Positions 1-19,822 of a stretch of 64,000 bases of DNA are shown piece by piece (the stretch's first letter is position 1; each line of letters opens with the position of its first letter). The translations under genes and the position numbers were made by a program. Source of the DNA: an uncultured Clostridia bacterium (lineage in GTDB: Bacteria; Bacillota; Clostridia; Lachnospirales; Lachnospiraceae); assembly GCA_948467395.1 (NCBI GenBank), contig CAOKDX010000009.1, positions 1-64,000 of the forward strand, in the 5' to 3' direction. The notes beneath the pieces were generated by a model. The model saw only the letters and a program-made list of their open reading frames with translations. It ran no database searches and was not told where the DNA came from.

Positions 1-450
1 GTTTCCTACTATGCACAGGGCGGCATCATGGACAGCCCGACGCTTTTCGGCATGGTAGGCGGGGAAGCCGGGCCGGAAGGAATTATTCCGCTTGATCCTT
101 TCTGGAACCAGCTTGACAGCGCAGTTTCGGCAGCAGTCGAAAATTTTGGCGGAGTATCACAGGCAAGGCAGGACGCGGACGCCCTTTCCGGGATGCATTC
201 GGCGGCCGGCGGCATGGATTCCAGGGCAAAGGAGCTTTACGGAGATATAGCGGGCAGCCACACGGAAAATATATCAAATGATAACAGCACTTCGGAAAAT
301 TCGCCGAGGCTTGTATTTTCGCCGCAGATAACGATCCAGGGCAACGCAAGCAAGGAAGATGTTCAGTCCGCGCTTTCGTGGTCACAGGAAGAATTTAACC
401 GGATGATGCAGGAATATAACTGGCAGAATGGCAGAACGGCCATGGCATAA
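1..450 (+). CDS. Phage tail tape measure protein, C-terminal fragment
   Basis: The frame is open from the first base, so only the last 149 codons of a longer gene are visible. The segment GGEAGPEGIIPLDPFW is the conserved C-terminal signature of tail tape measure proteins of Gram-positive phages, and tail genes follow directly. In the family this protein sets tail length and is threaded through the tail tube. An ATG at 28 exists but has no ribosome site and the homologous signature begins upstream of it, so it is not the real start. The tail end is polar and Asn/Gln rich with helical character. Confidence 0.85.
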   Translation, partial: VSYYAQGGIMDSPTLFGMVGGEAGPEGIIPLDPFWNQLDSAVSAAVENFGGVSQARQDADALSGMHSAAGGMDSRAKELYGDIAGSHTENISNDNSTSENSPRLVFSPQITIQGNASKEDVQSALSWSQEEFNRMMQEYNWQNGRTAMA

Positions 451-5970: not shown

Positions 5971-6462
5971 ATGTATATTCCGGTATTTTGGAAAGACAGG
6001 ATTGTTCAATATCCGCGGCGTTTCACTCATGAAAGCCTGGGAAATGGGCTTTATGATGTAAAACCGGCGCCGGGTGAGATTGAGCAGAGAGGAACGCCGC
6101 AGAGTTCAACGAATTTTGGCAATATGGACTTCGGCGTCCTGGAAAATGCGCTGATGGCATCTTTTATGGCCATGAACCTTCGGCTGACGCAGGAATCCGT
6201 GGACGATATGCGGGGGCAGGTCATAACGGTGGAACTTAAAAACACGCTGAAATTCCCCGCCACAAATGCGGAAAAGACAATCACGCTTCCGCAGATGGTA
6301 AACAATACGGATTACAGCGTGGAAGCGGAGATTGTTTCCGCAGATGGCCCCGTGGAGCGTGTGGAAACATACGGAAAGGCTTTAAATGCCTTTAAAGTCT
6401 GCTATTCCGGCAGCGCGCGCAATGTGGCGTTAAAACTTCATGTGACAGGGGGGCTTTACTGA
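5971..6462 (+). CDS. Unknown structural protein upstream of the DGR target gene
   Basis: The ATG follows a GAAAGGCAGG ribosome site. The 163-residue product opens with MYIPVFWKDRIVQYPRRF and later has a beta-rich half with the pattern of an adhesion or fibre-linking domain. It starts 20 bp after the preceding gene, and its stop codon overlaps the next start by one base. I do not recognise the family. Position suggests a component connecting the baseplate with the variable receptor-binding protein; this is inference from context only. Confidence 0.6.
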   Translation: MYIPVFWKDRIVQYPRRFTHESLGNGLYDVKPAPGEIEQRGTPQSSTNFGNMDFGVLENALMASFMAMNLRLTQESVDDMRGQVITVELKNTLKFPATNAEKTITLPQMVNNTDYSVEAEIVSADGPVERVETYGKALNAFKVCYSGSARNVALKLHVTGGLY

Positions 6463-6635
6463 TGGCGGCGAATGTGATCATAAAATCAGACGATCGCCGC
6501 CGGCAGGAAGCGGCGATTCTTAGACAGTTTGGCGGCGGTTCCCGTAAAAATTCCCCCCGCGAGAACCGGGAGTATGCGGAAGAAATCAATGCCAGGATGA
6601 ACGAGGTTAAAAGAGAGGTAGGGATCAGAATATGA
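6462..6635 (+). CDS. Small basic protein, unknown
   Basis: This 57-residue ORF begins with an ATG that shares its A with the TGA of the previous gene and ends in an ATGA overlap with the next gene, so it is translationally coupled on both sides. The product (MAANVIIKSDDRRRQEAAIL at its start) is highly charged, with Arg-rich helices and a Gly-rich turn in the middle, and could be a helical linker or chaperone. The two tight couplings and the shared base composition are the main evidence that it is real. Confidence 0.6.
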   Translation: MAANVIIKSDDRRRQEAAILRQFGGGSRKNSPRENREYAEEINARMNEVKREVGIRI

Positions 6636-7003
6636 AAATTATCGAAGCGAACGAGGGGCCGAAAATTTCCCATGTTGTTACGGGAAACTGGTTGAACCTT
6701 GGGGATCAGATCATGTTAAATCTGGCAACTATGGAATCCGAAAAGCCGGAACATAGGGATATATGCGCGGATGCTTTTGGAAAGCTGCATACAGGCGAAG
6801 GGCTTTACTATGTGGCGCAGATCGACATTCCGGCCAGAGGGTTCACGGAAAAAGAAGTTGAAAATCCGGACTATGATGCAGAAATTGAGGACGGATCCGG
6901 CATGAGTGGGAAAAGCCCGGTTATCATCCAGAGGGAGCCGATCCCGTTCTCTATGGACAATGTAACGCTGACGCTTTACGCATTAAAAGAGGGGGTGTTT
7001 TAA
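6632..7003 (+). CDS. Unknown protein coupled to the DGR target gene
   Basis: The ATG at 6632 overlaps the preceding stop codon (ATGA) and has AGAGAGGTAGGG just upstream. The 123-residue product has a beta-rich N-terminal part containing IEANEGPKISHVVTGNW and a long acidic linker before a final beta segment. I do not recognise it. Its stop codon abuts the TTG start of the DGR variable protein, so the two products are made together; an obvious but unproven idea is that it supports folding or attachment of the variable protein. Confidence 0.65.
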   Translation: MKIIEANEGPKISHVVTGNWLNLGDQIMLNLATMESEKPEHRDICADAFGKLHTGEGLYYVAQIDIPARGFTEKEVENPDYDAEIEDGSGMSGKSPVIIQREPIPFSMDNVTLTLYALKEGVF

Positions 7004-8050
7004 TTGAAAGCCTATAATTTTGACAGCTTGAAATTTGCAACGGAAGGACTGACCGGGTTCGGGTGTACCGTCATCCAGGATGATATAAACCTTCCATCTT
7101 TCATGATTCCAATTAACAAGCGGACAAATGCACAGCTTTTCACGGGTGGATCTGAAAAGACGCATTCCGCTTTTCTTGTGGATGATGTGGAATATAAACG
7201 CTTTTTTGCCAGCAAGTTTATAAACTGCATCATTAACGGAAGGGCGTATTCATGGCCCGGAATGGATCCGGCAGCAGTTATCAATTTTGATGATTCCATG
7301 GCGGCCTGCAACGCAAAGGGCGCAGGCTGGCATATGCTTTCTATCCCGGAAAGGGCGGTTATTAACCACTTGATCCATAAGTCCAGTTTTGAGCCGCACG
7401 GAAATACGCAGTACGGAAAAAATCACACATACACATATGAGGCCGGAGAGCAGACCGCAGACGAGGGCGACGGAAGCGGCGGCAGAAGGACAACCAGGAC
7501 AGCAACCGGATCCGGGCCGGCCACATGGTTTTCAGACGGCACAAGGGAAGGGATCGCCGATTGGGTCGGCAATGTCTGGAAATGGTGTTCCGGTATGCGC
7601 GTTGTGGATGGCAAAATCCAGATCATGAACCAGAATATGCCCGCAAAACAGGTATCTCATGCGGCGGTTAGCACGTACTGGAAAGAAATTCTTCCTTCCG
7701 GCGCCCTGGTGGATCCCGGTGCATCCGGAACGCTTGCCTATACGGCGGATTTCAAGGTCGGAACCGCAACCGGCGCGGCAGTCGCTAAACACATGGGGAA
7801 TTTTGCAAACATGGGCGCAGTAACCGGGCTTACAATTCCGGAAATCCTCTTTGAATTGTGCCTTGCGCCGAAAACTGGGGAAAACTATACCGGCGGCTTC
7901 TGGCTGAACAATGAAGGGGAACGCTTGCCGCTCGTTGGTGGCGGTTCCAACAGCACTTCCGGCGCTGGTTCGTCCGCGCTGAGCGTCGACGATCCCCGGT
8001 CGTACGTGAGCGCGGGCCTTGGCTTCTTTTCCGCTTTCCTTGAGTTGTGA
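7004..8050 (+). CDS. DGR variable (target) protein, C-type-lectin/formylglycine-enzyme-like fold
   Basis: This 348-residue protein starts at a TTG that directly follows the upstream TAA, with AGAGGGGGTG as ribosome site. The central region (MLSIPERAVINHLIH, then GIADWVGNVWKWCSGM) has the pattern of the formylglycine-generating-enzyme type of C-type lectin fold used by DGR receptor-binding proteins. The last 40 residues, about 307-346, are encoded by the variable repeat. Fourteen codons there differ from the template, among them six of the template's Asn codons now reading Ser, Gly, Asp or Tyr. It is likely the phage tail receptor-binding protein whose surface is diversified; the ligand is unknown. 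Confidence 0.9.
   Translation: MKAYNFDSLKFATEGLTGFGCTVIQDDINLPSFMIPINKRTNAQLFTGGSEKTHSAFLVDDVEYKRFFASKFINCIINGRAYSWPGMDPAAVINFDDSMAACNAKGAGWHMLSIPERAVINHLIHKSSFEPHGNTQYGKNHTYTYEAGEQTADEGDGSGGRRTTRTATGSGPATWFSDGTREGIADWVGNVWKWCSGMRVVDGKIQIMNQNMPAKQVSHAAVSTYWKEILPSGALVDPGASGTLAYTADFKVGTATGAAVAKHMGNFANMGAVTGLTIPEILFELCLAPKTGENYTGGFWLNNEGERLPLVGGGSNSTSGAGSSALSVDDPRSYVSAGLGFFSAFLEL
7921..8040 (+). repeat. DGR variable repeat (VR)
   Basis: This 120-bp segment aligns without gaps to the template repeat at 8585-8704 (offset 664). 104 positions are identical and 16 differ. All 16 differences are at template adenines: 11 A-to-G, 3 A-to-C and 2 A-to-T; the 94 non-adenine positions are all conserved. 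Examples are 7931, 7943, 7947, 7961-7962, 8003, 8015-8016 and 8037. The block 8021-8036 is unchanged and would serve as the initiation of mutagenic homology. It ends 7 bp before the stop codon. Confidence 0.97.
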
Positions 8051-8078
8051 TCTGCAATCTGAATACGGTGTTCTGTTT

Positions 8079-8098
8079 GGGGCTACGGTAGTAGCTCC
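8079..8098 (+). other. Hairpin with GGTA tetraloop downstream of the VR
   Basis: GGGGCTAC (8079-8086) can pair with GTAGCTCC (8091-8098) to give an 8-bp stem with one G-T pair, closed by the loop GGTA. In the Bordetella phage DGR a short GC-rich hairpin with a GRNA loop just downstream of the VR promotes retrohoming, and this loop fits GRNA. The spacing from the VR end, about 38 bp, is longer than in that phage. The T-rich tract that follows means it could instead, or also, act as a terminator. Confidence 0.55.
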
Positions 8099-8134
8099 TT
8101 TATTTTGGCGGGAAAGGGAAAAAGTAAAAATATT

Positions 8135-8545
8135 ATGGGAAATCTGAAAAGATATGACAACCGGCCGAAAGGTGATCCGGAAACCAACGAGGGACGGGAT
8201 CAAAGGAACGGTTTGATCATATTGCAGAAATCGAAAGATTTAATGCAGTACCTTTATACTTCGTGGGTGAAATATCCAAAAAGTGAAAAGCCGGGGTTCG
8301 TGGCAGATTACAAGAAATGTCTGTTTGATTTTCTGAAGCTGATTATCACGGCGCAGAAACGGTATTTCAAGAAAACCACTTTACAGGATGCAGATGTGCA
8401 GCTTGAATTATTGCGGCTTTTCAATGATCTTTCGTATGATCTGCATTTCATTGATGAAAAGCGTTATCAACTGATTTCTATGCGGCTATGTGAGATAGGA
8501 AGGCTTCTTGGCGGCTGGATCAAGTCGCAGAAAGAAAACAGTTAA
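8135..8545 (+). CDS. avd: DGR accessory variability determinant (Avd), four-helix bundle
   Basis: The product is a small basic helical protein whose C-terminus has the SMRLCEIGRLLGGWIKSQ pattern typical of Avd/four-helix-bundle proteins of DGRs. In Bordetella phage, Avd forms a barrel-shaped pentamer that binds the reverse transcriptase and template RNA. I chose the ATG at 8135, giving 136 residues, the usual size; an in-frame TTG at 8105 would add ten residues but lacks a ribosome site, while GGGAAAGGGA lies upstream of 8135 at a rather long spacing. It lies between VR and TR, the standard DGR order. Confidence 0.85.
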   Translation: MGNLKRYDNRPKGDPETNEGRDQRNGLIILQKSKDLMQYLYTSWVKYPKSEKPGFVADYKKCLFDFLKLIITAQKRYFKKTTLQDADVQLELLRLFNDLSYDLHFIDEKRYQLISMRLCEIGRLLGGWIKSQKENS

Positions 8546-8548
8546 AAT

Positions 8549-8967
8549 CCGGATGCGGTTTATCCGGTGGGAACGGGTCAAATAACGCTTGCCGATCGTT
8601 GGTGGCAGTTACAACAACACTTCCAACGCTGGTTCGTCCGCGCTGAACGTCAACAATCCCCGGTCGAACGTGAACACGAACATTGGCTTCTTTTCCGCTT
8701 ACCTTTTGAGCCAGAAGGGGAATGTTTACGGACATTCTCACAGTGCAAGGAAAAGGAAAGGGATCCGTTTCCGTTCTGGCAGATTGCCAGAAAAACTAAA
8801 GTTGCTATCAATGCAGTTAGTACCGGCATCCAGACGCGCCGCCGCAGAGGGTGTACAGGGCTTGAAGGGTGTAACGGGTAGCGCGGCATTTTCGGCCGAA
8901 AGCCGGAAACGCAATCCCCGCCGGCGGTGGATGCGGCGGGGAAATATCCTGGAAAGGAAAAGAAACA
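8549..8967 (+). ncRNA. DGR template RNA region (TR plus flanks)
   Basis: This 419-base stretch between avd and the reverse transcriptase has no convincing gene. In DGRs the template RNA extends beyond the TR on both sides, and cDNA synthesis depends on the downstream spacer. A hairpin just before the TR (CCGGAT 8549-8554 with ATCCGG 8562-8567) and a GC-rich hairpin just before the RT ribosome site (CCCCGCC 8916-8922 with GGCGGGG 8935-8941) bracket the element. Exact RNA ends cannot be read from the sequence. Confidence 0.55.
8585..8704 (+). repeat. DGR template repeat (TR)
   Basis: This is the 120-bp donor copy of the variable repeat at 7921-8040. It contains 26 adenines, many in AAC codons when read in the target frame, the arrangement that gives the widest amino acid choice after A-to-N mutagenesis. 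Sixteen of the 26 are changed in the VR. The reading frame through it is open but has no plausible start and is not a gene. It lies between avd and the reverse transcriptase. Confidence 0.97.
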
Positions 8968-10083
8968 TTGAAAACCTTTAATGTGACGCATGATGAAATA
9001 ATAAGTTTCGATAATCTGTTAGAAGCAGACCGGAACGCTTCCAAAAACAAGCGTTACCGTGACGAGAATCTAAAGTTTGCGGCACACAGGGAAGAGGAAC
9101 TTATAAATCTTAACAATGAGCTGACCTATTTTCCAAAAGATGGGGTTCCGGGGAATCCCCTGAAATCATCCTATCGCGTGGGAAAATACCGGATGAAGAA
9201 AATATATGAGCCGAAGCCGCGGATCATCATGGCCCTGCAATACCGGGATCGTGTCGTGCAATGGGCTTTCTATCAAAAGTTAAATCCATTGTTTGACCGG
9301 CAGTATATCACGCATAGTTACGGATGCAGAAATGGAAAGGGAACCACGGCGGCAAGGGCGCAGCTTCAGACATGGATCCGCAAGGCATCCAGGCGTTCCA
9401 AAAAGTGGTATGTACTGAAACTGGACATAGCAAAGTATTTTTACAGGGTTGACCATGAAATCCTCATGAAAATACTTGCAAAGCATATCAAAGACGAACT
9501 TATCCTTCGTGACCTCTATAATCTGATAAATTGTGAGGACACGGCCTTCGGACTTCCGGAAGGGGTGCAGCCGGAGTTATGCGATCAAGAGGACTGGATC
9601 TACAACCGCGGTATGCCTATCGGAAATTTGACAAGCCAGATGTTTGCTAATATCTATTTGAATGAGCTTGATCAGTTCTGCAAACATGATCTGCATATCC
9701 GGTATTATATCCGCTATATGGATGATATTATCATCCTATGGCCGGATAAAAAGGAATTGCAGGGCATCCGTGACGAAATAGAAAGGTTCCTGGATGAAAA
9801 ATTGCATCTTGAATTAAATAAAAAGACCTGCATCCGGCCAGTGAACCTTCCGGTCACTTTTGTAGGGGCGCAGATTACGGCGAAGCGGATCCGCATGAGG
9901 AAAAGCACAAGAAAGCGGATGTTTAGGCGGATGAAATTCATCCGGAAACTGTTTGAAGTCGGCCATATCACTTTTGAAAAGGTCAACAATACCATGCAGA
10001 GTTATTTTGGATTGATTGAGCATTTCACGGCTGGAAACCTTTTGAGGAAAATAATTGATGAATTTTCCTTCCACATATTTTAA
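8968..10083 (+). CDS. DGR reverse transcriptase
   Basis: This 371-residue enzyme starts at a TTG with GGAAAGG upstream. It has reverse transcriptase motif A with the catalytic Asp at 153 (LKLDIAKYFYRVD), the IGNLTSQ motif at 218-224, which marks DGR and related non-LTR-like enzymes, and the active-site YMDD at 250-253. Length fits the DGR class, which lacks nuclease domains. It copies the template RNA with errors at adenines and, with Avd, sends the mutated cDNA to the variable repeat. It is the last gene of the DGR; the gene order target-VR-avd-TR-RT is canonical. Confidence 0.95.
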   Translation: MKTFNVTHDEIISFDNLLEADRNASKNKRYRDENLKFAAHREEELINLNNELTYFPKDGVPGNPLKSSYRVGKYRMKKIYEPKPRIIMALQYRDRVVQWAFYQKLNPLFDRQYITHSYGCRNGKGTTAARAQLQTWIRKASRRSKKWYVLKLDIAKYFYRVDHEILMKILAKHIKDELILRDLYNLINCEDTAFGLPEGVQPELCDQEDWIYNRGMPIGNLTSQMFANIYLNELDQFCKHDLHIRYYIRYMDDIIILWPDKKELQGIRDEIERFLDEKLHLELNKKTCIRPVNLPVTFVGAQITAKRIRMRKSTRKRMFRRMKFIRKLFEVGHITFEKVNNTMQSYFGLIEHFTAGNLLRKIIDEFSFHIF

Positions 10084-10146
10084 CAATACATAGTTCGGGA
10101 AACCGGGCTTTTTTATTGTCTAAAAACAAAGAAAGGGGGTTTTCCT

Positions 10147-10410
10147 ATGGAAACAACTTTTGAACGTGAAGTCCTAGACCGTCTGACAAAGATTGAAGCA
10201 AAACTGGATAGTTTCGACGCCGCAAAGAAAAAGACCTATGACAATGAAAACGACATTATCCGGCTGAATGGGGATGTTGAAGGACTGAAAGAGCGCGTCA
10301 ATCAGTTGGAAGATTCCAACAAATGGCTGGCCCGGACATTGGCGGCGGCTATTATAACGGCCGTTGTCGGCGTTGTGGTCGTGCTGATCCGCATGGGAGC
10401 GGGGATTTAA
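10147..10410 (+). CDS. xhlA: XhlA-type haemolysin/lysis accessory protein
   Basis: The 87-residue product has an N-terminal coiled-coil (EREVLDRLTKIEAKLDSF, then a second heptad stretch around residues 40-60) and one C-terminal membrane segment (LAAAIITAVVGVVVVLIRMG), the layout of XhlA. In Bacillus phage PBSX, XhlA works with a holin to disturb the membrane and allow endolysin export. A GAAAGGGGG ribosome site precedes the ATG. Two small membrane proteins and an endolysin follow, so this opens the lysis module. Confidence 0.85.
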   Translation: METTFEREVLDRLTKIEAKLDSFDAAKKKTYDNENDIIRLNGDVEGLKERVNQLEDSNKWLARTLAAAIITAVVGVVVVLIRMGAGI

Positions 10411-10427
10411 GAAGGGAAAGGCTGAAA

Positions 10428-10730
10428 ATGAATTATTCAAGGAATTACAGACGGCGAAGGCGGGCGGCGCCCGCTGCAAAAAAGAAACGGAAAACAATGG
10501 ATATTGTTCTTGTTGTGGTTGGCTTTTTGCTGATTGCCTTTACTTTGAAAATGATCCATGTGTTTGAAACAACCGGAGCGATTCCGGATACTTTATGTAC
10601 TTGCGTATTTGCCGCATTGTCCGGAGAGTGCGGGATCATGGGGTGGATCAAGGTCACAAAAGACAAATACACGGATCGAAAATGGCAGCAAGAGGACAGA
10701 GAAAGAGAGGAAAAAGAAAATGACGTTTGA
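10428..10730 (+). CDS. Small two-TM membrane protein of the lysis module
   Basis: The ATG at 10428 follows GAAGGGAAAGG and gives 100 residues; longer in-frame versions run back into xhlA without a ribosome site. The N-terminus is very basic (RRRRRAAPAAKKKRK), followed by two membrane segments at about 24-45 and 55-75 and a charged C-terminal tail. The basic N-terminus predicts a cytoplasmic start. Its place between XhlA and a holin-like gene suggests a holin partner or antiholin, but the sequence alone does not settle it. It overlaps the next gene by 11 bp. Confidence 0.6.
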   Translation: MNYSRNYRRRRRAAPAAKKKRKTMDIVLVVVGFLLIAFTLKMIHVFETTGAIPDTLCTCVFAALSGECGIMGWIKVTKDKYTDRKWQQEDREREEKENDV

Positions 10731-11025
10731 AATTTTTATGTTCGGGCTTTTGGTTGTGTCAGTATTGACCGGGCTTTTCACGGAAGCGATCAAGGGATGG
10801 CTTTCAGAGCGTGGGAAGAAATTCTATTGCAACGCATTGGCCGGATATGTTGCCGCGGCGGTGTCCGTCCTGGTATCGGTCGGCTATCTGATCATTACGG
10901 AAACGGCCTTTAATTTGAAAATGGCGGTGTATCTGATCGCCCTTGTGCTTTTGTCATGGCTGGCCGCAATGGTAGGCTATGACAAAGTTATCCAGTCCAT
11001 AACGCAATTTAAGAAGGGGGCTTGA
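10720..11025 (+). CDS. Holin-like protein
   Basis: The 101-residue product has three hydrophobic stretches (about 4-22, 40-62 and 68-88) separated by short charged loops, with a basic tail, the pattern of class I phage holins. A GAGAGGAAAAAG ribosome site lies inside the upstream gene, with which it overlaps by 11 bp. It directly precedes the endolysin. Holins form timed membrane holes that release the endolysin. No specific family signature is clear, so the name rests on size, topology and neighbours. Confidence 0.7.
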   Translation: MTFEIFMFGLLVVSVLTGLFTEAIKGWLSERGKKFYCNALAGYVAAAVSVLVSVGYLIITETAFNLKMAVYLIALVLLSWLAAMVGYDKVIQSITQFKKGA

Positions 11026-11027
11026 TC

Positions 11028-12476
11028 ATGGCACTTACTGGAAAAGATACAGCGGAAAAAATCTGGAATTTTTTGATCGCCGCAGGGCTGAACAAATACG
11101 GCGCCGCCGGCCTTATGGGAAATCTGGAAAAGGAATCCGGACTGAATCCGGAGAACTTGGAAAATTTGTGTGAAAGGCGGCTGAAAGAAGCCGGAAAGCC
11201 CTATTGCACAGATAAGGCATACACGGCGGCGGTTGACGCCGGACAGATCAGCCGCGCGGAATTTCTGAATCCCCTTCCCGGTAAACAATACGGGTACGGA
11301 CTGGCACAGTGGACTTCTGCAGGCCGCAAGGTGGGGCTTTACGATCTGGCAAAGTCAAAAGGTGTTTCAATCGGGGATCTGGAAATGCAGCTTGAATTTT
11401 TGATCAAGGAGCTTTCCACAAGTTACAAGGGCGTGCTTTCCGTCTTAAAGGCGGCCGCAGATGTGAAAACGGCATCCGACAAAGTTTTGACCGGATTTGA
11501 GCGGCCGGCCGATCAGTCTGAAGGAGTAAAAGCAGAGCGCGCCAGATGCGGGCAGGCGTATTTTGATAAATACGCGGCATCCGGCGGCGGAAAGGGGAAT
11601 AATATCATGGGAATAAGAATTGGACACGCGAGCATTTCAGAAAACGGAACCACAAGCGGAAAAGCCGGGGATCAGACCGGAAAAGAAGTCTGCATCCGGG
11701 AATGGTACTCTAAACCGTGGGATTATGTGGCGATCCATCCGGATGCAAACGTCCGGGAGAAACACGCGGCGGCAGTTGAAGCGGCTTGCAAAAATGACAA
11801 TATCGGTTATAACTGGTTCGGAGAGAATGACCGGAACAGCCTTTACAAGCTGGCAAAGGCGGCAAATTTTGATCTGTCAAAAGTCGGGAAATGTAATTGT
11901 GATTGCAGCAGCCTTCAGAACGTGGCGGCGGTTGCATCCGGATCCGGCGCAACATACGGTTCCAACGGCTGGACTACATCCACAATGAAGGCCGCCCTGG
12001 TTGCCCTGGGATATAAAATCATTACGGCCAGTACATACTTGACAAGTTCGGCGTATTGCGTCCGCGGTGCAATCTATGTAAATTCCGGATCCCATACGGT
12101 TACTGGCCTTGACAATGGGGCGAACGCAAGTAAAACACTGGCGGCGGCCGGCATTTCATCCGGAGCGGTTTCTTCTGGCGGATCCGGTGGGGGAAATTCT
12201 ATTGACCAGATCGCAAGGGAAGTTATAGCTGGTAAGTGGGGAACCGGCGGAACCAGACAGGTGAAACTTGCGGCGGCGGGTTACGATTACCAGACAGTAC
12301 AAAACCGGGTAAATGAAATCTTGAAATCCGGAAACAGTGCGAAAAAATCCAATGAGGAAATCGCAAGGGAAGTTATAGCTGGCAAGTGGGGCAATGGAGA
12401 GGATCGGAAAAACCGTCTGAAAGCGGCGGGGTATGATCCGGCCGCCGTCCAGAAATGCGTCAATAAAATGTTATAG
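11028..12476 (+). CDS. Modular phage endolysin (tail-lysozyme-like, NlpC/P60-like, two CW_7 repeats)
   Basis: The start at 11028 has AAGAAGGGGG seven bases upstream; a TTG at 11022 is less likely. The 482 residues show three parts. Residues about 5-180 match the phage tail lysozyme domain (LIAAGLNKYGAAGLMGNLEKES, with E as likely catalytic residue). Residues about 190-375 resemble an NlpC/P60-type amidohydrolase, with the Cys-rich CNCDCSSLQ as likely active-site Cys region. The C-terminus carries two CW_7 cell-wall-binding repeats, each with EIAREVIAGKWG or a close variant. It should cut host peptidoglycan at lysis. The linker before the repeats is Gly/Ser rich. Confidence 0.85.
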   Translation: MALTGKDTAEKIWNFLIAAGLNKYGAAGLMGNLEKESGLNPENLENLCERRLKEAGKPYCTDKAYTAAVDAGQISRAEFLNPLPGKQYGYGLAQWTSAGRKVGLYDLAKSKGVSIGDLEMQLEFLIKELSTSYKGVLSVLKAAADVKTASDKVLTGFERPADQSEGVKAERARCGQAYFDKYAASGGGKGNNIMGIRIGHASISENGTTSGKAGDQTGKEVCIREWYSKPWDYVAIHPDANVREKHAAAVEAACKNDNIGYNWFGENDRNSLYKLAKAANFDLSKVGKCNCDCSSLQNVAAVASGSGATYGSNGWTTSTMKAALVALGYKIITASTYLTSSAYCVRGAIYVNSGSHTVTGLDNGANASKTLAAAGISSGAVSSGGSGGGNSIDQIAREVIAGKWGTGGTRQVKLAAAGYDYQTVQNRVNEILKSGNSAKKSNEEIAREVIAGKWGNGEDRKNRLKAAGYDPAAVQKCVNKML

Positions 12477-14613: not shown

Positions 14614-14922
14614 TTATGCAGTTGCAATTTTTTCTACCTGGTCAGCCGTGAAAAGAAACGCTTTTGCAAGGTAATAATGGTTGAGTGATTCGCCGTCCGT
14701 TTCTCCATCCGCTTCAGCAGATTTTTTCTTGCTGGTGTATTTCCAGAGCCGGGTTGTGATTTTTGCGTGTTCGCCTTTTCTTACGATATATCCGGCACTT
14801 TTCCACGTCTGGAAAGTATGCAGCGGAATCATGTGTCCAGTTTCAAGGATTGCTTCGACTTCCTCTTTTGTGTAAAGTCCGTTTGCGATTGCTTCATTGA
14901 TGATGATTTGTGTATTTGTCAT
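14614..14922 (-). CDS. ArdC-N-like small protein (possible antirestriction or ssDNA-binding)
   Basis: The 102-residue product contains IPLHTFQTWKSAGYIVRKGE followed by a HAKITTRLWKY stretch. The pattern of an aromatic W, then G-Y-x-V-x-K-G-E and a beta strand is that of the N-terminal ssDNA-binding domain of ArdC-type antirestriction proteins, though the metallopeptidase part is absent. Related short proteins are frequent in clostridial plasmids and phages. A shielding role against host defence is plausible but inferred. The gene has the operator-controlled promoter at 14958-14986, divergent from the regulator gene. Confidence 0.55.
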   Translation of the reverse strand: MTNTQIIINEAIANGLYTKEEVEAILETGHMIPLHTFQTWKSAGYIVRKGEHAKITTRLWKYTSKKKSAEADGETDGESLNHYYLAKAFLFTADQVEKIATA

Positions 14923-15390: not shown

Positions 15391-16983
15391 TTGAGCCTTT
15401 ATATCGACAGGAACGAATTTGATTTTGGGGATGAAGAGGACGAGGTAATACGGGAGGCAGGCATAGACAGGGAAGAAATTCCCTATTTTCATGGGGAGAC
15501 CCGTCAGTTGGAGTATACCTTTTCTGAGATCGGAGAGAAGGCAAATCTCATCGGAAATTATAAGGGAGTTCTCTATTTTTATAAGATAACATGCCCGAAA
15601 AAGGAAATGGAAAAGTTTTATTATAAAGATTTCAGGGGCAGGAAAAATCTTACCAAAGAATTTGGCGGGATCAAGATATACCGGGATCATTTCCGTGTTC
15701 GTCCCTATGGGGAATACGGAGACAATGATTTTGACTGGCTGGAGTTGTCCGCCCGGAGAAACCGTTCTCCGGCAGGTCTGGGACACCAGAAAGGGAACTG
15801 GCGTGTCGGCTCGGAGCAGATGACCGGTCTGGTGGATATATCCAGGGAGAACAGCAATCTGGAAGACGCGGCAAACCGGAATGGAATCCAGGAGGGTCCC
15901 GGTTTTGACCAGTTAAAAAGAGTTTTGATCGCCGTGATCAGTGAATTTGAACGGGACAGACAGGGAGTCGGCAGAAAGCTGGCGGAGTATGCAAAGAAAA
16001 AGGATGCGCTCCAGGCAGAGCTCGAAGAGATGCGCAGGATGGCAGAGGCGCGTAAAAGATGGGAAGAAGAGCAGCAAAAAAAGCAGCAGGATCGGGCGGC
16101 AGATAACCGGAAAGAAGCGGAAGAAAGCGAAGCGTCAGATCACGAAGAAGGAGCCCCGGAAGTAAATCCCAATAAAGTTTTGGATCTTTTGGAATCCATG
16201 GGTGAAAGGCAGGAGCAGGAGATCCAGGAATTAGAAGATGAGATGAAGCTGCTTCAGACCCTGGCAACGACAGGGATTATCGCAAATATGTTTATGCATG
16301 AGATCCGTACGCTGACAAATAATATCGGTCAGGAACTGGATTCAGCATTTGAAGCGATCAAGTATGACCAGGATACTGAAGAAGCATTTCATAATATTCA
16401 GCAGGCAATTGTTTTTAAAAAACATTTTGCTTCCTGGTTTGGCGTGACGATTGAATCGGTCCGCAAGGATAAGAGAAAACGAAAATGGTGTAATATCAAA
16501 GAAATTCTGAAAGATTTTATGGAAACATGGCAGGAGATACTGGAAAGAAATAATGTCCGGCTGTTATTCTCCTGTGATGAGGATATTTCGTTCCGATGTT
16601 TTGCTTTTGATATCGAGAATGTGATCAGCAACCTTATTTCAAACAGTCTTGTATCGTTTGAGCGCGAAAATGACGAGGTGCTGGAGGAAAAGGAGATCAG
16701 GATAACGATTGAAAAAAGAGAAGAAGGATTTATTATTTATTATGAAGACACAGGATGGGGGCTGACGCAAAAATATAAAAAGCGGCCGGAACGGATCCTG
16801 GAGGCACTGGAAAGCGACAGGGGGATTCCAGGTGAGAGGGAAGATGAGGACGGGACAGGCATGGGAATGTGGATTGTAAACCGTACGGTACTGGAGTATA
16901 ATGGAGAGATCGATCTATCAGAAAATAAATTGCTGAGCAAAGGGTTTAAGGCAAATATAAGCTTTGGAGGAAAATATGTATAG
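15391..16983 (+). CDS. Histidine-kinase-like ATPase, probably 5'-truncated by prophage insertion
   Basis: The visible 530 residues start abruptly in SLYIDRNEFDFGDEEDE, a segment that I expect in the middle of larger proteins with an N-terminal Hsp90-like ATPase domain. Then come a linker with long coiled-coil (residues about 175-295), an H-box with His303 (MFMHEIRTLTNN), an N-box (ENVISNLISNSLVSFE), and G-boxes (YEDTGWGL and GTGMGMWIV). These are the phosphoacceptor and ATP-binding motifs of sensor histidine kinases. No membrane segment is present, so it senses something in the cytoplasm. The TTG at 15391 has only a weak ribosome site (GGTAGG). It overlaps the receiver gene by 8 bp. Confidence 0.75.
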   Translation: MSLYIDRNEFDFGDEEDEVIREAGIDREEIPYFHGETRQLEYTFSEIGEKANLIGNYKGVLYFYKITCPKKEMEKFYYKDFRGRKNLTKEFGGIKIYRDHFRVRPYGEYGDNDFDWLELSARRNRSPAGLGHQKGNWRVGSEQMTGLVDISRENSNLEDAANRNGIQEGPGFDQLKRVLIAVISEFERDRQGVGRKLAEYAKKKDALQAELEEMRRMAEARKRWEEEQQKKQQDRAADNRKEAEESEASDHEEGAPEVNPNKVLDLLESMGERQEQEIQELEDEMKLLQTLATTGIIANMFMHEIRTLTNNIGQELDSAFEAIKYDQDTEEAFHNIQQAIVFKKHFASWFGVTIESVRKDKRKRKWCNIKEILKDFMETWQEILERNNVRLLFSCDEDISFRCFAFDIENVISNLISNSLVSFERENDEVLEEKEIRITIEKREEGFIIYYEDTGWGLTQKYKKRPERILEALESDRGIPGEREDEDGTGMGMWIVNRTVLEYNGEIDLSENKLLSKGFKANISFGGKYV

Positions 16984-17620
16984 GATTGGGTATATAGATG
17001 ACCAGCCGGCCCAGTATGAGAATTATAGAAAAAAACTCCAACGAAGATACAGGGATGTGGAACTGATTTTGCTGGAAGGCTGTAACACGAGAGAAGAGTT
17101 TCTGGAAAAGATATATGAGGAGCGGATCGAGGTGCTGTTAGTCGATTATAAGATGGCGGGATCTTATGGGTTTAATGGTTCGACACTGATCAATTATATC
17201 AACGACCAGATGAGAGATCTGGAGTGCTTTATCCTGACGGCAGTGGAACAGGATCAGATCAACGATGGTCTTGTGACGCGGCGCAACAGGTATTCGAAAA
17301 CGATATTTGATACGGAGGGCGATGATCCCGGCCGGGTGGAACAGTTAGATGAATTTGTTGAAACACTCAGACAAAGTGCAGACGTATTCAAACGGCGCAG
17401 TGAAGAGAAAAAGGAGAAATATTTTTTACTGCTTGAAAAAAGGAAAGAGAAAAAACTTTCCCTGTCGGAGGAAGAGGAATATCTCAGATTATATGAGGTA
17501 TTATCCTCCTATGGTATGATCGAGAAACTGCCGGAAAAGGTTTTGACAACGGATTTTGAGGAGAAACTGGATAAGCTGCTCGCCATGGGAGACCGGATCA
17601 TTAAAAAATATGATCAGTAG
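16976..17620 (+). CDS. Receiver-domain (REC) protein of the kinase-HNH-methylase operon
   Basis: The ATG at 16976 lies six bases after GGAGG and overlaps the kinase stop codon by 8 bp. The 214 residues form a REC domain with the acidic pair near the start (IGYIDDQ), the phosphoacceptor Asp57 (VLLVDYKMAG), a Thr in FILTAV and a Lys in YSKTIF, all the residues needed for phosphotransfer. A helical, Lys/Glu-rich C-terminal part of about 90 residues follows, with no DNA-binding domain. It should receive phosphate from the upstream kinase and act on a partner protein rather than a promoter. Confidence 0.85.
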   Translation: MYRIGYIDDQPAQYENYRKKLQRRYRDVELILLEGCNTREEFLEKIYEERIEVLLVDYKMAGSYGFNGSTLINYINDQMRDLECFILTAVEQDQINDGLVTRRNRYSKTIFDTEGDDPGRVEQLDEFVETLRQSADVFKRRSEEKKEKYFLLLEKRKEKKLSLSEEEEYLRLYEVLSSYGMIEKLPEKVLTTDFEEKLDKLLAMGDRIIKKYDQ

Positions 17621-17629
17621 GAGGAAATA

Positions 17630-18214
17630 GTGAGAGTACATGGTGATAAGATGATCCGGCGGAGAACGGATGTGGGAGAACTGAAACAGTACCAGGAAGC
17701 CAGGGATGAGTTGACAGAGGATTTTCACGGGATGTGTGGGTATTGCGGGAAAAGCGGGATGATCATGCACCAAAGATTTCATATCGACCATTTTGTCCCT
17801 CAGAGTCTGGCGCCCGAACGGATCAATGATTATAACAATCTGGTTCTTGCCTGTCCGAAATGTAACCGCACGAAATCCAAAAAGTGGCCGACGAAAGATA
17901 AAAAGATACATCATGATGGGCGGGTTGGTTTTGTTGATCCAGCGACGGAAGAATTTGACCGGCATATCGGGAGGGATGAACAGGGTTATATAAACGGAAT
18001 AACCGAACTGGGAAGACATATGTGCAAAAATCTTCATTTTGATATCCGTAGGACAGATCTCTACTGGAAGATACAGCTTTTGTATCAGACGCAGAACCGG
18101 CTTGAGGAGTTGTTTCATGACGATATGCTGGATGAATCAGAAAAAGATTTTTATATATGTTCCAATATTATGCTAAAAGAGTACATACAGGACGCATTTG
18201 AAAAAGGTGAGTAG
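17630..18214 (+). CDS. HNH endonuclease
   Basis: The GTG start follows GAGGAAAT. The 194-residue product carries a full HNH motif: Cys36-x2-Cys39, then HIDHFVPQS with His51, Asp53 and His54, then NLVLACPKCN with Cys75 and Cys78, so both the catalytic His and the structural zinc site are intact. The C-terminal 90 residues are helical and could contact DNA or a partner. The gene follows the receiver gene by 9 bp and directly abuts the methyltransferase start, consistent with the cutting half of a restriction system. Confidence 0.85.
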   Translation: MRVHGDKMIRRRTDVGELKQYQEARDELTEDFHGMCGYCGKSGMIMHQRFHIDHFVPQSLAPERINDYNNLVLACPKCNRTKSKKWPTKDKKIHHDGRVGFVDPATEEFDRHIGRDEQGYINGITELGRHMCKNLHFDIRRTDLYWKIQLLYQTQNRLEELFHDDMLDESEKDFYICSNIMLKEYIQDAFEKGE

Positions 18215-19822
18215 ATGAGCGACGATAAAAAGACAGGTTCCTATTATACGCCGACAGAGCTGATTGATTTTATGGTGACCTATTTAAGAAAGGAAGAACA
18301 GGATTTTTCTAACATTTTAGAACCTTCTGCCGGGGACGGAAGGTTTTTTTCTTCGCTGCTTCCGTTATGCGGTGCGGCAAAGGCGATCGAGAGATTTGCT
18401 CATAAAGTGCAGGAGATCCGGGAAAGATATGGGGACAGGAAACTGGAGGTAATAGAAGACGATTTTATCCATTTTTCCATGACGTGCAAAGATAAATATT
18501 CTCTTATTATCGGAAATCCCCCGTATATAAACCCTAAAACGATGGATAAAGATGATTTGGAAAGAGCAAAACAATTGTGCATGATGGAGGGATTGAAGCC
18601 TTCTGTGATGCAGAATATGTGGCTGGCCTTTGTACTGGGAGCCTGCCGTGTGCTTGAAAAGAATGGCACGATTTTTTTTGTGCTTCCCATGGAGTTTCTG
18701 CAGGTACAATACGCAGAAAAACTTCGGGAACATCTGGAAAAAAGGTTTAACACCATACATATTATTACGTTTGAAGTCCCTGTTTTTCCTGATATCGAAC
18801 AGGAGATTTGCCTGGTTTACCTGACGAACCGCAGGACGGTACCTCCTTATATCTTATATGAAAAATATAAGGATGCCCGTGCCTGTAAACCGGTTTATCA
18901 GAATATGATAAAGAAGAACAAACCATTAAAGAAGTGGTCCAATGCGATCCTGTCAGATGATGATATTATGCTGCTTCAGGACACGGCAAAGTGCTATAGT
19001 GCCATAAATGCAATGGGCATCAGCGCCCCGGGTATTGTGACGGGGGGGAATAAGTATTTCATTATTACGGAGCAGGAGAAGGAAAAATATGATTGTGAGG
19101 GCCAGGTGTTAGAGATTCTTCAGAAATCTGCTTATGTTTCGGAAAATACAATTATGATTGATGAAAGGGTGGTTAATAAACTCAGGGAGGAGAACAAACC
19201 AATGTATCTGCTGAACCTTGCCGGGACATCCGAGTCCGATCTCTCCCGGAGACTGTCTGCGTATCTGGAATGGGCGGGAAATCAGAAAACAGGAGACAGG
19301 AAACTCAAAGAACGATATAAATGTGCCAATCGGACACCTTGGTATGGCGTACCCATCGTAAACAAGGGCGATGTAATATTTTTCAAGCGGTATCATATGA
19401 TTCCAAGGGTGTACAGCAACCGTGCGGATATTCACACTACAGATGCGGGATATCATATCCGGCTGGATCAGGGATGGGATAAGGATAGTCTGGTATTTTG
19501 TTTTTATAATTCCCTGACACTGGCTCAATGTGAGTTTGAGGGCAGATATTATGGCGGCGGTGTCAGCGAACTGGTTCCCAGTGAATTTAAAAAACTCAGG
19601 ATACCTTATCGACATATTGAAAAACAGGATATGGAAGCTTTGGACCAGATGTTTCGTGAGAAGAAACCGGTAGAGGAGATCGTTTCCTTTGTGAATGCCA
19701 GAACATTGGCAGGAGAAGTGGACGGGAGAACGATCCAGAGACTGGAGGAGATCCGGATTAAACTGCTTCAGAGACGGTATCCGGACAGCCTGGCGGCGTC
19801 TCCCAGTGAAGAAAGCAGATGA
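18215..19822 (+). CDS. N6-adenine DNA methyltransferase (TaqI/Eco57I-like)
   Basis: The ATG immediately follows the HNH stop codon. Of 535 residues the N-terminal third carries methyltransferase motif I (EPSAGDGRF, 36-44) and the catalytic NPPY at 101-104, both typical of N6-adenine enzymes. The C-terminal third (HMIPRVYSNRADIHTTDAGY, then FYNSLTLAQCEFEGRYYGGG) matches TaqI-type target recognition domains. There is no fused nuclease, so the upstream HNH protein is the probable partner. It would mark self DNA in a restriction-modification pair. The target site cannot be inferred. Confidence 0.9.
   Translation: MSDDKKTGSYYTPTELIDFMVTYLRKEEQDFSNILEPSAGDGRFFSSLLPLCGAAKAIERFAHKVQEIRERYGDRKLEVIEDDFIHFSMTCKDKYSLIIGNPPYINPKTMDKDDLERAKQLCMMEGLKPSVMQNMWLAFVLGACRVLEKNGTIFFVLPMEFLQVQYAEKLREHLEKRFNTIHIITFEVPVFPDIEQEICLVYLTNRRTVPPYILYEKYKDARACKPVYQNMIKKNKPLKKWSNAILSDDDIMLLQDTAKCYSAINAMGISAPGIVTGGNKYFIITEQEKEKYDCEGQVLEILQKSAYVSENTIMIDERVVNKLREENKPMYLLNLAGTSESDLSRRLSAYLEWAGNQKTGDRKLKERYKCANRTPWYGVPIVNKGDVIFFKRYHMIPRVYSNRADIHTTDAGYHIRLDQGWDKDSLVFCFYNSLTLAQCEFEGRYYGGGVSELVPSEFKKLRIPYRHIEKQDMEALDQMFREKKPVEEIVSFVNARTLAGEVDGRTIQRLEEIRIKLLQRRYPDSLAASPSEESR

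Follow-up and report, generated by a model that had tools for sequence, protein, structure and literature searches.

Does the DNA analysed here carry a complete diversity-generating retroelement (DGR), and has that element rewritten its target gene in the recent past? The stretch in question, hereafter the window, comprises positions 1-64,000 of the forward strand of contig CAOKDX010000009.1 (assembly GCA_948467395.1), from an uncultured Clostridia bacterium of the Lachnospiraceae. The locus that it contains is almost certainly a complete and recently active phage DGR. We assign it to the DGRs because the Avd models, the family of its reverse transcriptase (RT), the match of this RT to a structure solved together with Avd, the pattern of differences between its template repeat (TR) and variable repeat (VR), and the homology of its target to TaqVP all point there.

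Components of the element

On the plus strand the target gene is followed by avd, the TR and the RT gene, which is the canonical DGR arrangement; the target carries its VR C-terminally. A preliminary description of this DNA had given the order target-VR-avd-TR-RT, and direct inspection of the anatomy found every part in its place, with the open frames of RT, avd and target intact. The Avd-like protein that had been placed between target and TR was recognised above cut-off by both PF22296 (E 4.8e-23) and NF033474 (94 bits, cut-off 80). For the RT, in which YMDD and IGNLTSQ (which we take to be a DGR-type RT motif) had been noted, the suggested profile search was run and returned PF00078 (E 3.9e-24) and phrog_1423 (E 6.3e-122); its best solved structure is chain A of 8ub7 (E 8.5e-38), in which chain B bears the name Avd.

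The target matched 5VF4 (TaqVP) with an E value of 2.5e-51 and, in a profile comparison, of 1.4e-72, where a second stretch covered chain residues 301-383. According to passages of PMC6328139, 5VF4 is TaqVP, the variable protein of a DGR; it adopts a C-type-lectin fold, and residues 341-374 make up its VR. Homology to this protein indicates that the target is of the C-type-lectin kind with the VR at its end. The target also matched phrog_2889 (E 1.8e-97), whose function is not known, and weakly the tail family phrog_5302 (E 3.7e-5). No Pfam family matched it even with E values allowed up to 10, its AlphaFold model (mean pLDDT 39) was too poor to use, and its relatives in the phage collection (52 records) are each less than 60% identical to it; the target alignment did not include L050, which had been read in a wrong frame. 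The gene neighbourhood, the weak similarity to phrog_5302 and analogy suggest a position at the tail tip. Judged by neighbourhood and homology, the product of the DGR is probably a diversified binding protein of the phage tail, and its rewriting would affect host recognition.

Adenine-specific variation between template and variable repeat

The longest direct repeat within positions 6000-11500 is an ungapped pair of 122 bp (VR 7920-8041, TR 8584-8705) with 87% identity, and all of its 16 differences lie at TR adenines, which from base content alone would happen with a chance of about 3e-11. The preliminary description had the adenine-only pattern right; the length of 120 bp and the base counts of 26 adenines and 94 other bases given there compare with 122 bp, 27 and 95 here. 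Its statement that 16 adenines were rewritten needs an amendment, which concerns the last difference (8037/8701). In all 18 loci compared, the window included, the common repeat is followed by T in the VR and by A in the TR; this is therefore a fixed boundary difference, such as would be expected, by analogy, between IMH (initiation of mutagenic homing) and IMH*. What stands is that, in the 116-bp core, 15 of 25 adenines and none of 91 other bases were changed.

The same pattern was observed directly across related loci. The screen for TR/VR pairs covered 23 sources and yielded 18 usable pairs, the window included; three sources (L042, L047, L122) had no pair and two (L121, L123) were duplicates, their contigs being the same as those of L041 and L048, and all five were dropped before counting. 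One pair, L129, is identical to L044, which leaves 17 distinct pairs. Pooled over these, 210 of 422 adenines were changed (112 to G, 53 to C, 45 to T), against a single change (L044, G to C) among 1550 non-adenine bases. The first core adenine (TR 8585) is represented in the VRs by A or G only (nine and eight pairs, respectively), and may lie outside the rewritten stretch. With regard to codon context, the first A of AA codons in the context GAA often becomes T (24 T, 18 G and 17 C among 59 changes) and the second A in the context AAC mostly becomes G (46 of 59 changes), counts that are both confounded by selection on the VRs. With the same confounding, the T bias at the first A fits the passages of PMC12875486 on the reconstitution of the BPP-1 system in E. 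coli, and the second-A bias to G disagrees with them, as they report a raised change to C.

A search of the host assembly with the TR gave two significant matches, the TR itself and the VR, followed by two more at E 2.4 and 4.4, and a search with the target protein matched only the target itself and the TR; there is one VR.

Rewriting since a recent common ancestor

A nearly identical phage from IMG/VR (L041), with 96.4% identity to the window over 9.6 kb, allows the timing of these changes to be addressed. Between the two, 15 of 117 VR bases differ, every one at a TR adenine, as against 6 of 916 bases in the target outside the VR (Fisher p 8e-11), 11 of 441 in avd and 10 of 1116 in the RT gene, and there is no difference in the TR (0/117) or in the spacer between TR and RT (0/267). 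All 14 codon changes in the VR are nonsynonymous, whereas the six in the remainder of the target and the 11 in avd are all synonymous. Positions 6632-7003 were left out of this comparison, as the ungapped alignment is out of register there (181 of 372 mismatches).

In all, seven pairs of loci share a TR. Six of them differ in the VR by 9-17 bases, each difference at a TR adenine, and the seventh (L044/L129) is identical; the expectation that variable positions in related genomes would be limited to TR adenines was borne out in six of the six differing pairs. The adenine-only pattern, together with near-identical phages that have one TR and different VRs, upholds the earlier proposal that mutagenic homing has occurred. 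On these comparisons of sequences, which show rewriting since the common ancestor of near-identical phages and not activity today, recent activity of the DGR is well supported, and the natural pairs lend indirect support to RT-dependent mutagenic retrohoming in the living cell. The coordinates of the features are collected in Table 1.

Table 1. Features of the DGR locus, with positions in the window.
Feature	Position	Strand	Remarks
DGR target gene	7004-8050	+	348 aa, TTG start, C-terminal VR; by homology a C-type-lectin-type variable protein
Variable repeat (VR)	7920-8036	+	15 rewritten adenine positions
Repeat end	8037-8041	+	T where the TR has A, fixed in all loci compared; IMH side of the boundary, so named by analogy
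Hairpin	8079-8098	+	8-bp stem with one G-T pair; loop GGTA fits GRNA
avd	8135-8545	+	ATG 8135, the more likely start; alternative start TTG 8105; PF22296, NF033474
Template repeat (TR)	8584-8700	+	from the repeat comparison; identical in L041
TR-junction/spacer RNA	8696-8853	+	RT-14-like; R1 and Rfam RF02921 matches
DGR reverse transcriptase	8968-10083	+	371 aa, open frame, IGNLTSQ and YMDD; PF00078, phrog_1423, 8ub7_A

The target-site hairpin

Passages of Guo et al. (PMC3240598) describe the known DGR hairpin as a GC-rich stem of 7-10 bp with a GRNA loop, 4-34 bp after the VR. The window contains such a structure downstream of the VR, with the sequence GGGGCTAC-GGTA-GTAGCTCC, and it has the GC-rich stem and the GRNA loop, at a distance outside the printed range. 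The hairpin is conserved: it was observed directly in all 17 distinct loci, where a stem of 7-9 bp carries a loop fitting GRNA (GATA in 11 loci, GGTA in three, GGGA in two and GAGA in one) and begins 41-43 nt downstream of the repeat. Across these loci paired changes occur at three positions of the stem, and L046 has one unpaired end position. When the window stretch was shuffled by single bases, none of 5000 shuffles gave a stem of at least 8 with such a loop. Repeat end and hairpin are joined by a linker (8037-8078, about 42 nt) that contains repeated ATCTG/TCTG words and is conserved in the 15 loci aligned.

A structured RNA at the end of the template

The spacer between TR and RT was observed to fold with covariation in 14 loci, with 94.2% of cells paired and 15 double-change pairs. 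Its covariation score was 0.318, as against 0.200 in shuffles, none of 500 of which reached the observed value, and sliding gave no more than 0.113; the structure was derived from the alignment on which it was scored, which works in its favour. Further pair types did not stand out, as 68 of 500 shuffles reached them. A first model (R1; 68 positions, comprising the last five TR bases and the start of the spacer) gave 82.8 bits for the window, one of its training sequences. With an E limit of 0.05 it recognised 43 of the 141 other DGR loci. R1 also matched Vibrio phage VHML directly before its RT gene (L207:8948-9013, E 0.0033), and there too the TR end falls on the same position of the model; at its own cut-offs Rfam has no match there. 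BPP-1 was matched neither by R1 nor by the second model, R2, which was built from nine close loci, 33 R1 hits and VHML. Given 95 of the 98 remaining loci (L061, L175 and L181, whose stretches begin close to the RT, were left out), R2 matched 63 at E up to 0.05, which brings the two models together to 106 of 141. One R2 hit, L193, was false by position; 107 of the 108 hits, with L193 and VHML counted, lie 80-460 nt upstream of the RT match and on its strand.

The position of this RNA coincides with the end of the template. Measured from the model start, TR ends determined independently of the models lie 1-6 nt downstream in 40 of 41 loci, a count that favours agreement in that the pair nearest to the element was taken from the five best. 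Among 59 further loci, for which the best-scoring pair was taken, the distance is 3-5 nt in 54. The TR-end bases CGCU are kept in 90, 95, 94 and 93 of 95 matches, base by base, and they face the spacer motif AA-R-GG, whose bases are kept in 94 of 94 to 95 of 95. Over 93 distinct rows the covariation score was 0.702, compared with 0.231 shuffled and at most 0.167 slid, in an alignment fitted to the structure; double-change pairs did not stand out over these rows (4 of 500 shuffles reached them). A new RNA family was considered and rejected: an Rfam scan of the window at the gathering threshold gave no match, a permissive scan gave RT-14 (RF02921), and relatives pass the cut-off of that family (6 of the 12 other DGR loci given reached it); the RNA is therefore not a new family.

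In BPP-1 the priming adenine is, as we presume, adenine 56; our literature search for position 56 gave nothing. Passages of PMC12875486 report that the BPP-1 spacer recruits the RT-Avd complex and that an internal spacer adenine primes the cDNA. The conserved spacer adenines described here, which face the TR end at about the distance of adenine 56, would fit a cDNA-priming step.

Prophage context and alternative explanations

The preliminary description had placed the element in a prophage tail module. Genes upstream of it include Baseplate_J and Tail_P2_I, and a holin and an endolysin follow downstream; the region is therefore a tail and lysis region of a prophage, in agreement with that placement. 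The contig starts inside a tape-measure gene, with window positions 28-447 aligning to the C-terminal end of the tape-measure protein of a relative (39% identity, E 1e-26; the tape-measure, sheath and portal proteins of this relative were named by PHROGs). The DGR is complete, and the prophage itself is cut by the contig end.

Several observations weigh against a complete and recently active phage DGR. The RT gene shows five nonsynonymous and four synonymous codon changes relative to L041, and therefore no excess of synonymous change. Folded as DNA, the window hairpin, with its one G-T pair, reaches -5.1 kcal/mol as compared with -8.5 for L041, and it begins 42 nt past the repeat end, as compared with the 4-34 bp printed in the passages of PMC3240598. 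Measured by the gathering cut-off of RT-14, the RNA of the window falls short of membership (8698-8853; 37.3 bits, cut-off 48.1, E 0.0012, with the model matched over its full length); the cut-off is also missed by L043, L048, L050, L145, L115 and VHML, the first three of which are close relatives. Finally, no homologue of the sheath and portal proteins of the relative was found in the host assembly, which is 97.7% complete, and because of this the phage may be a remnant.

This last point, together with the G-T pair in the hairpin, is what favours the reading that a formerly active DGR now lies dormant or decaying in a prophage remnant, where the VR would be a record of past rewriting and no phage would be made. 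In control searches the sheath and portal queries matched four and three of the five relatives' records, respectively, with the misses falling on fragments of 15.9 and 25.6 kb. The SPP1 portal family, tried as a test of completeness, is absent from the relatives' records too and is therefore uninformative, which is why sheath and portal queries from the relative were used in its place. Against dormancy, the frames of RT, avd and target are all open, the comparison with L041 shows rewriting since a recent common ancestor, and the contig begins inside the tape-measure gene, so that the missing genes may lie on unassembled or unbinned DNA. On balance, we regard the dormant remnant as unlikely and prefer a complete, recently active DGR. 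That the RT belongs to a group II intron or a defence system, with a tandem duplication producing the repeat pair by coincidence, is already contradicted and can practically be dismissed: group_II_RT_mat (TIGR04416) is indeed the best NCBIfam RT model and PADLOC matches the RT with general RT and DRT models, but the former scores 120.7 bits against a cut-off of 300, all NCBIfam group II intron and defence-RT models stay far under cut-off, the best solved structure is that of an RT solved together with Avd, and avd, TR, VR and hairpin all adjoin the RT, with adenine-only differences.

The host carries three more RT genes, L001, L003 and L004 (on host contigs C26, C4 and C7), of which L001 is a group II intron RT above cut-off (384 bits); with the same model the shorter L003 scores 207 bits and L004 75 bits, both below cut-off. 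Beside the prophage end, at 15391-19822, a GHKL/HATPase gene, a receiver-like gene (below the Pfam cut-off), an HNH nuclease gene (best PADLOC match PtuB, E 3.4e-18) and an Eco57I-type methyltransferase gene (PADLOC MTase_II, E 5.2e-120) stand in a row, which is possibly a defence or restriction island. A small protein encoded at 14614-14922 on the minus strand marginally matches the N-terminal domain of ArdC, an anti-restriction factor, with a score of 22.6 bits that just equals the cut-off.

Sister elements with tandem templates

Arrays of several R2 units were found in sister DGRs, upstream of one RT in each: four units in L144 (L144:4885-5905) and, among the 12 RT relatives of this locus, four in L209 (L209:2845-3895), three in L210 (L210:1-725) and three in L211 (L211:3110-3890); seven of the remaining relatives have one unit and two have none. 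Each tandem unit consists of a TR and the junction RNA, the units are spaced by 276-304 nt, and all four of L144 reach the RT-14 cut-off. The VR of L144 differs from its best TR at six adenines and no other base in 105 nt (over 118 nt there are two non-adenine differences) and from the other three TRs at 14-18 non-adenine positions. For L209 the best TR shows nine adenine differences and one other, as compared with 17-24 for the other TRs. In these two loci the one VR found derives from one of four different TRs. The array of L210 matches three of the L209 TRs (0/68, 1/105 and 5/105 differences), with no VR found in the stretch examined, and L211 has two identical TRs and a third, none of which its VR fits well (10 or 17 non-adenine differences).

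These tandem multi-template elements are more unusual than the element of the window. DGRs with several TRs have already been published, as passages of PMC6642488 attest; tandem arrays of TR plus RNA were not met in a literature search for tandem or multiple templates or in passages of PMC4891356, PMC6642488 and PMC8144416, which is far from proof of absence. As a tentative proposal, somewhat less probable than not, the RT-14-type fold would set the boundary of rewriting to within a few nucleotides, and DGRs with tandem arrays would be able to switch templates besides mutating adenines. As regards the boundary, CGCU would form the foot of the covarying stem opposite the near-invariant spacer adenines, and A 8701, the first spacer base, would for that reason never be copied into the VR.

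Proposed mechanism and significance

By analogy with BPP-1, we propose the following series of biochemical steps. The avd-TR-spacer transcript would fold at the 3' junction of the TR into the RT-14-like RNA, and RT and Avd would copy the TR into cDNA from that foot, placing random bases opposite template adenines. Aided by the fixed repeat end and by the GRNA-loop hairpin 42 nt downstream, this cDNA would then take the place of the VR, with which the target protein ends C-terminally.

As a kind, the window element is an ordinary DGR, a phage device of a well-known type which rewrites the end of one protein at random, and it is clean as an example. Its value lies in offering a clean natural case of near-identical phages with one TR and different VRs, in a family that combines shared-TR pairs, a conserved hairpin and a covarying spacer RNA. 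The by-products of the analysis, namely the tie of the TR boundary to an RNA foot, seen in about a hundred DGR loci, and the tandem multi-template DGRs, would matter more if true, since they concern the choice of the stretch to be rewritten and the amount of diversity that a single element can generate.

Comparison with known systems

More than 30,000 DGRs have been reported from metagenomes in passages of PMC8144416. The DGR of Bordetella phage BPP-1 (mtd, avd, TR, brt) shares with the window the order target-avd-TR-RT, as annotated in its record, adenine-specific rewriting, a GRNA-loop hairpin after the VR, and an Avd and an RT related to chains of 8ub7 and 4dwl. Unlike the window RNA, which is RT-14-like, its spacer RNA is Rfam Phage_DGR, and the hairpin of the window lies farther from the repeat. 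Rfam RT-14 (RF02921) is placed, as is the window RNA, in the spacer at the TR/RT junction, with the window scoring under its cut-off. The prophage DGR of Thermus aquaticus (TaqVP), as described in passages of PMC6328139, has a homologous target, an avd gene and a C-terminal VR; it differs in host group, and the fold of the window target is assigned by homology only. Prophage DGRs of Faecalibacterium (Roos, Pioen, Lagaffe_CP and others) are, like that of the window, gut prophage DGRs, and a protein of phage FP_Lagaffe resembles the window target (40% over 70% of its length). In the passages of PMC11792537 that describe them, several targets carry DUF6273 and some of the phages have two VRs, in contrast to the window, with its one VR and a target that matches no Pfam family, and two of these DGRs are active as judged by VR variation in reads.

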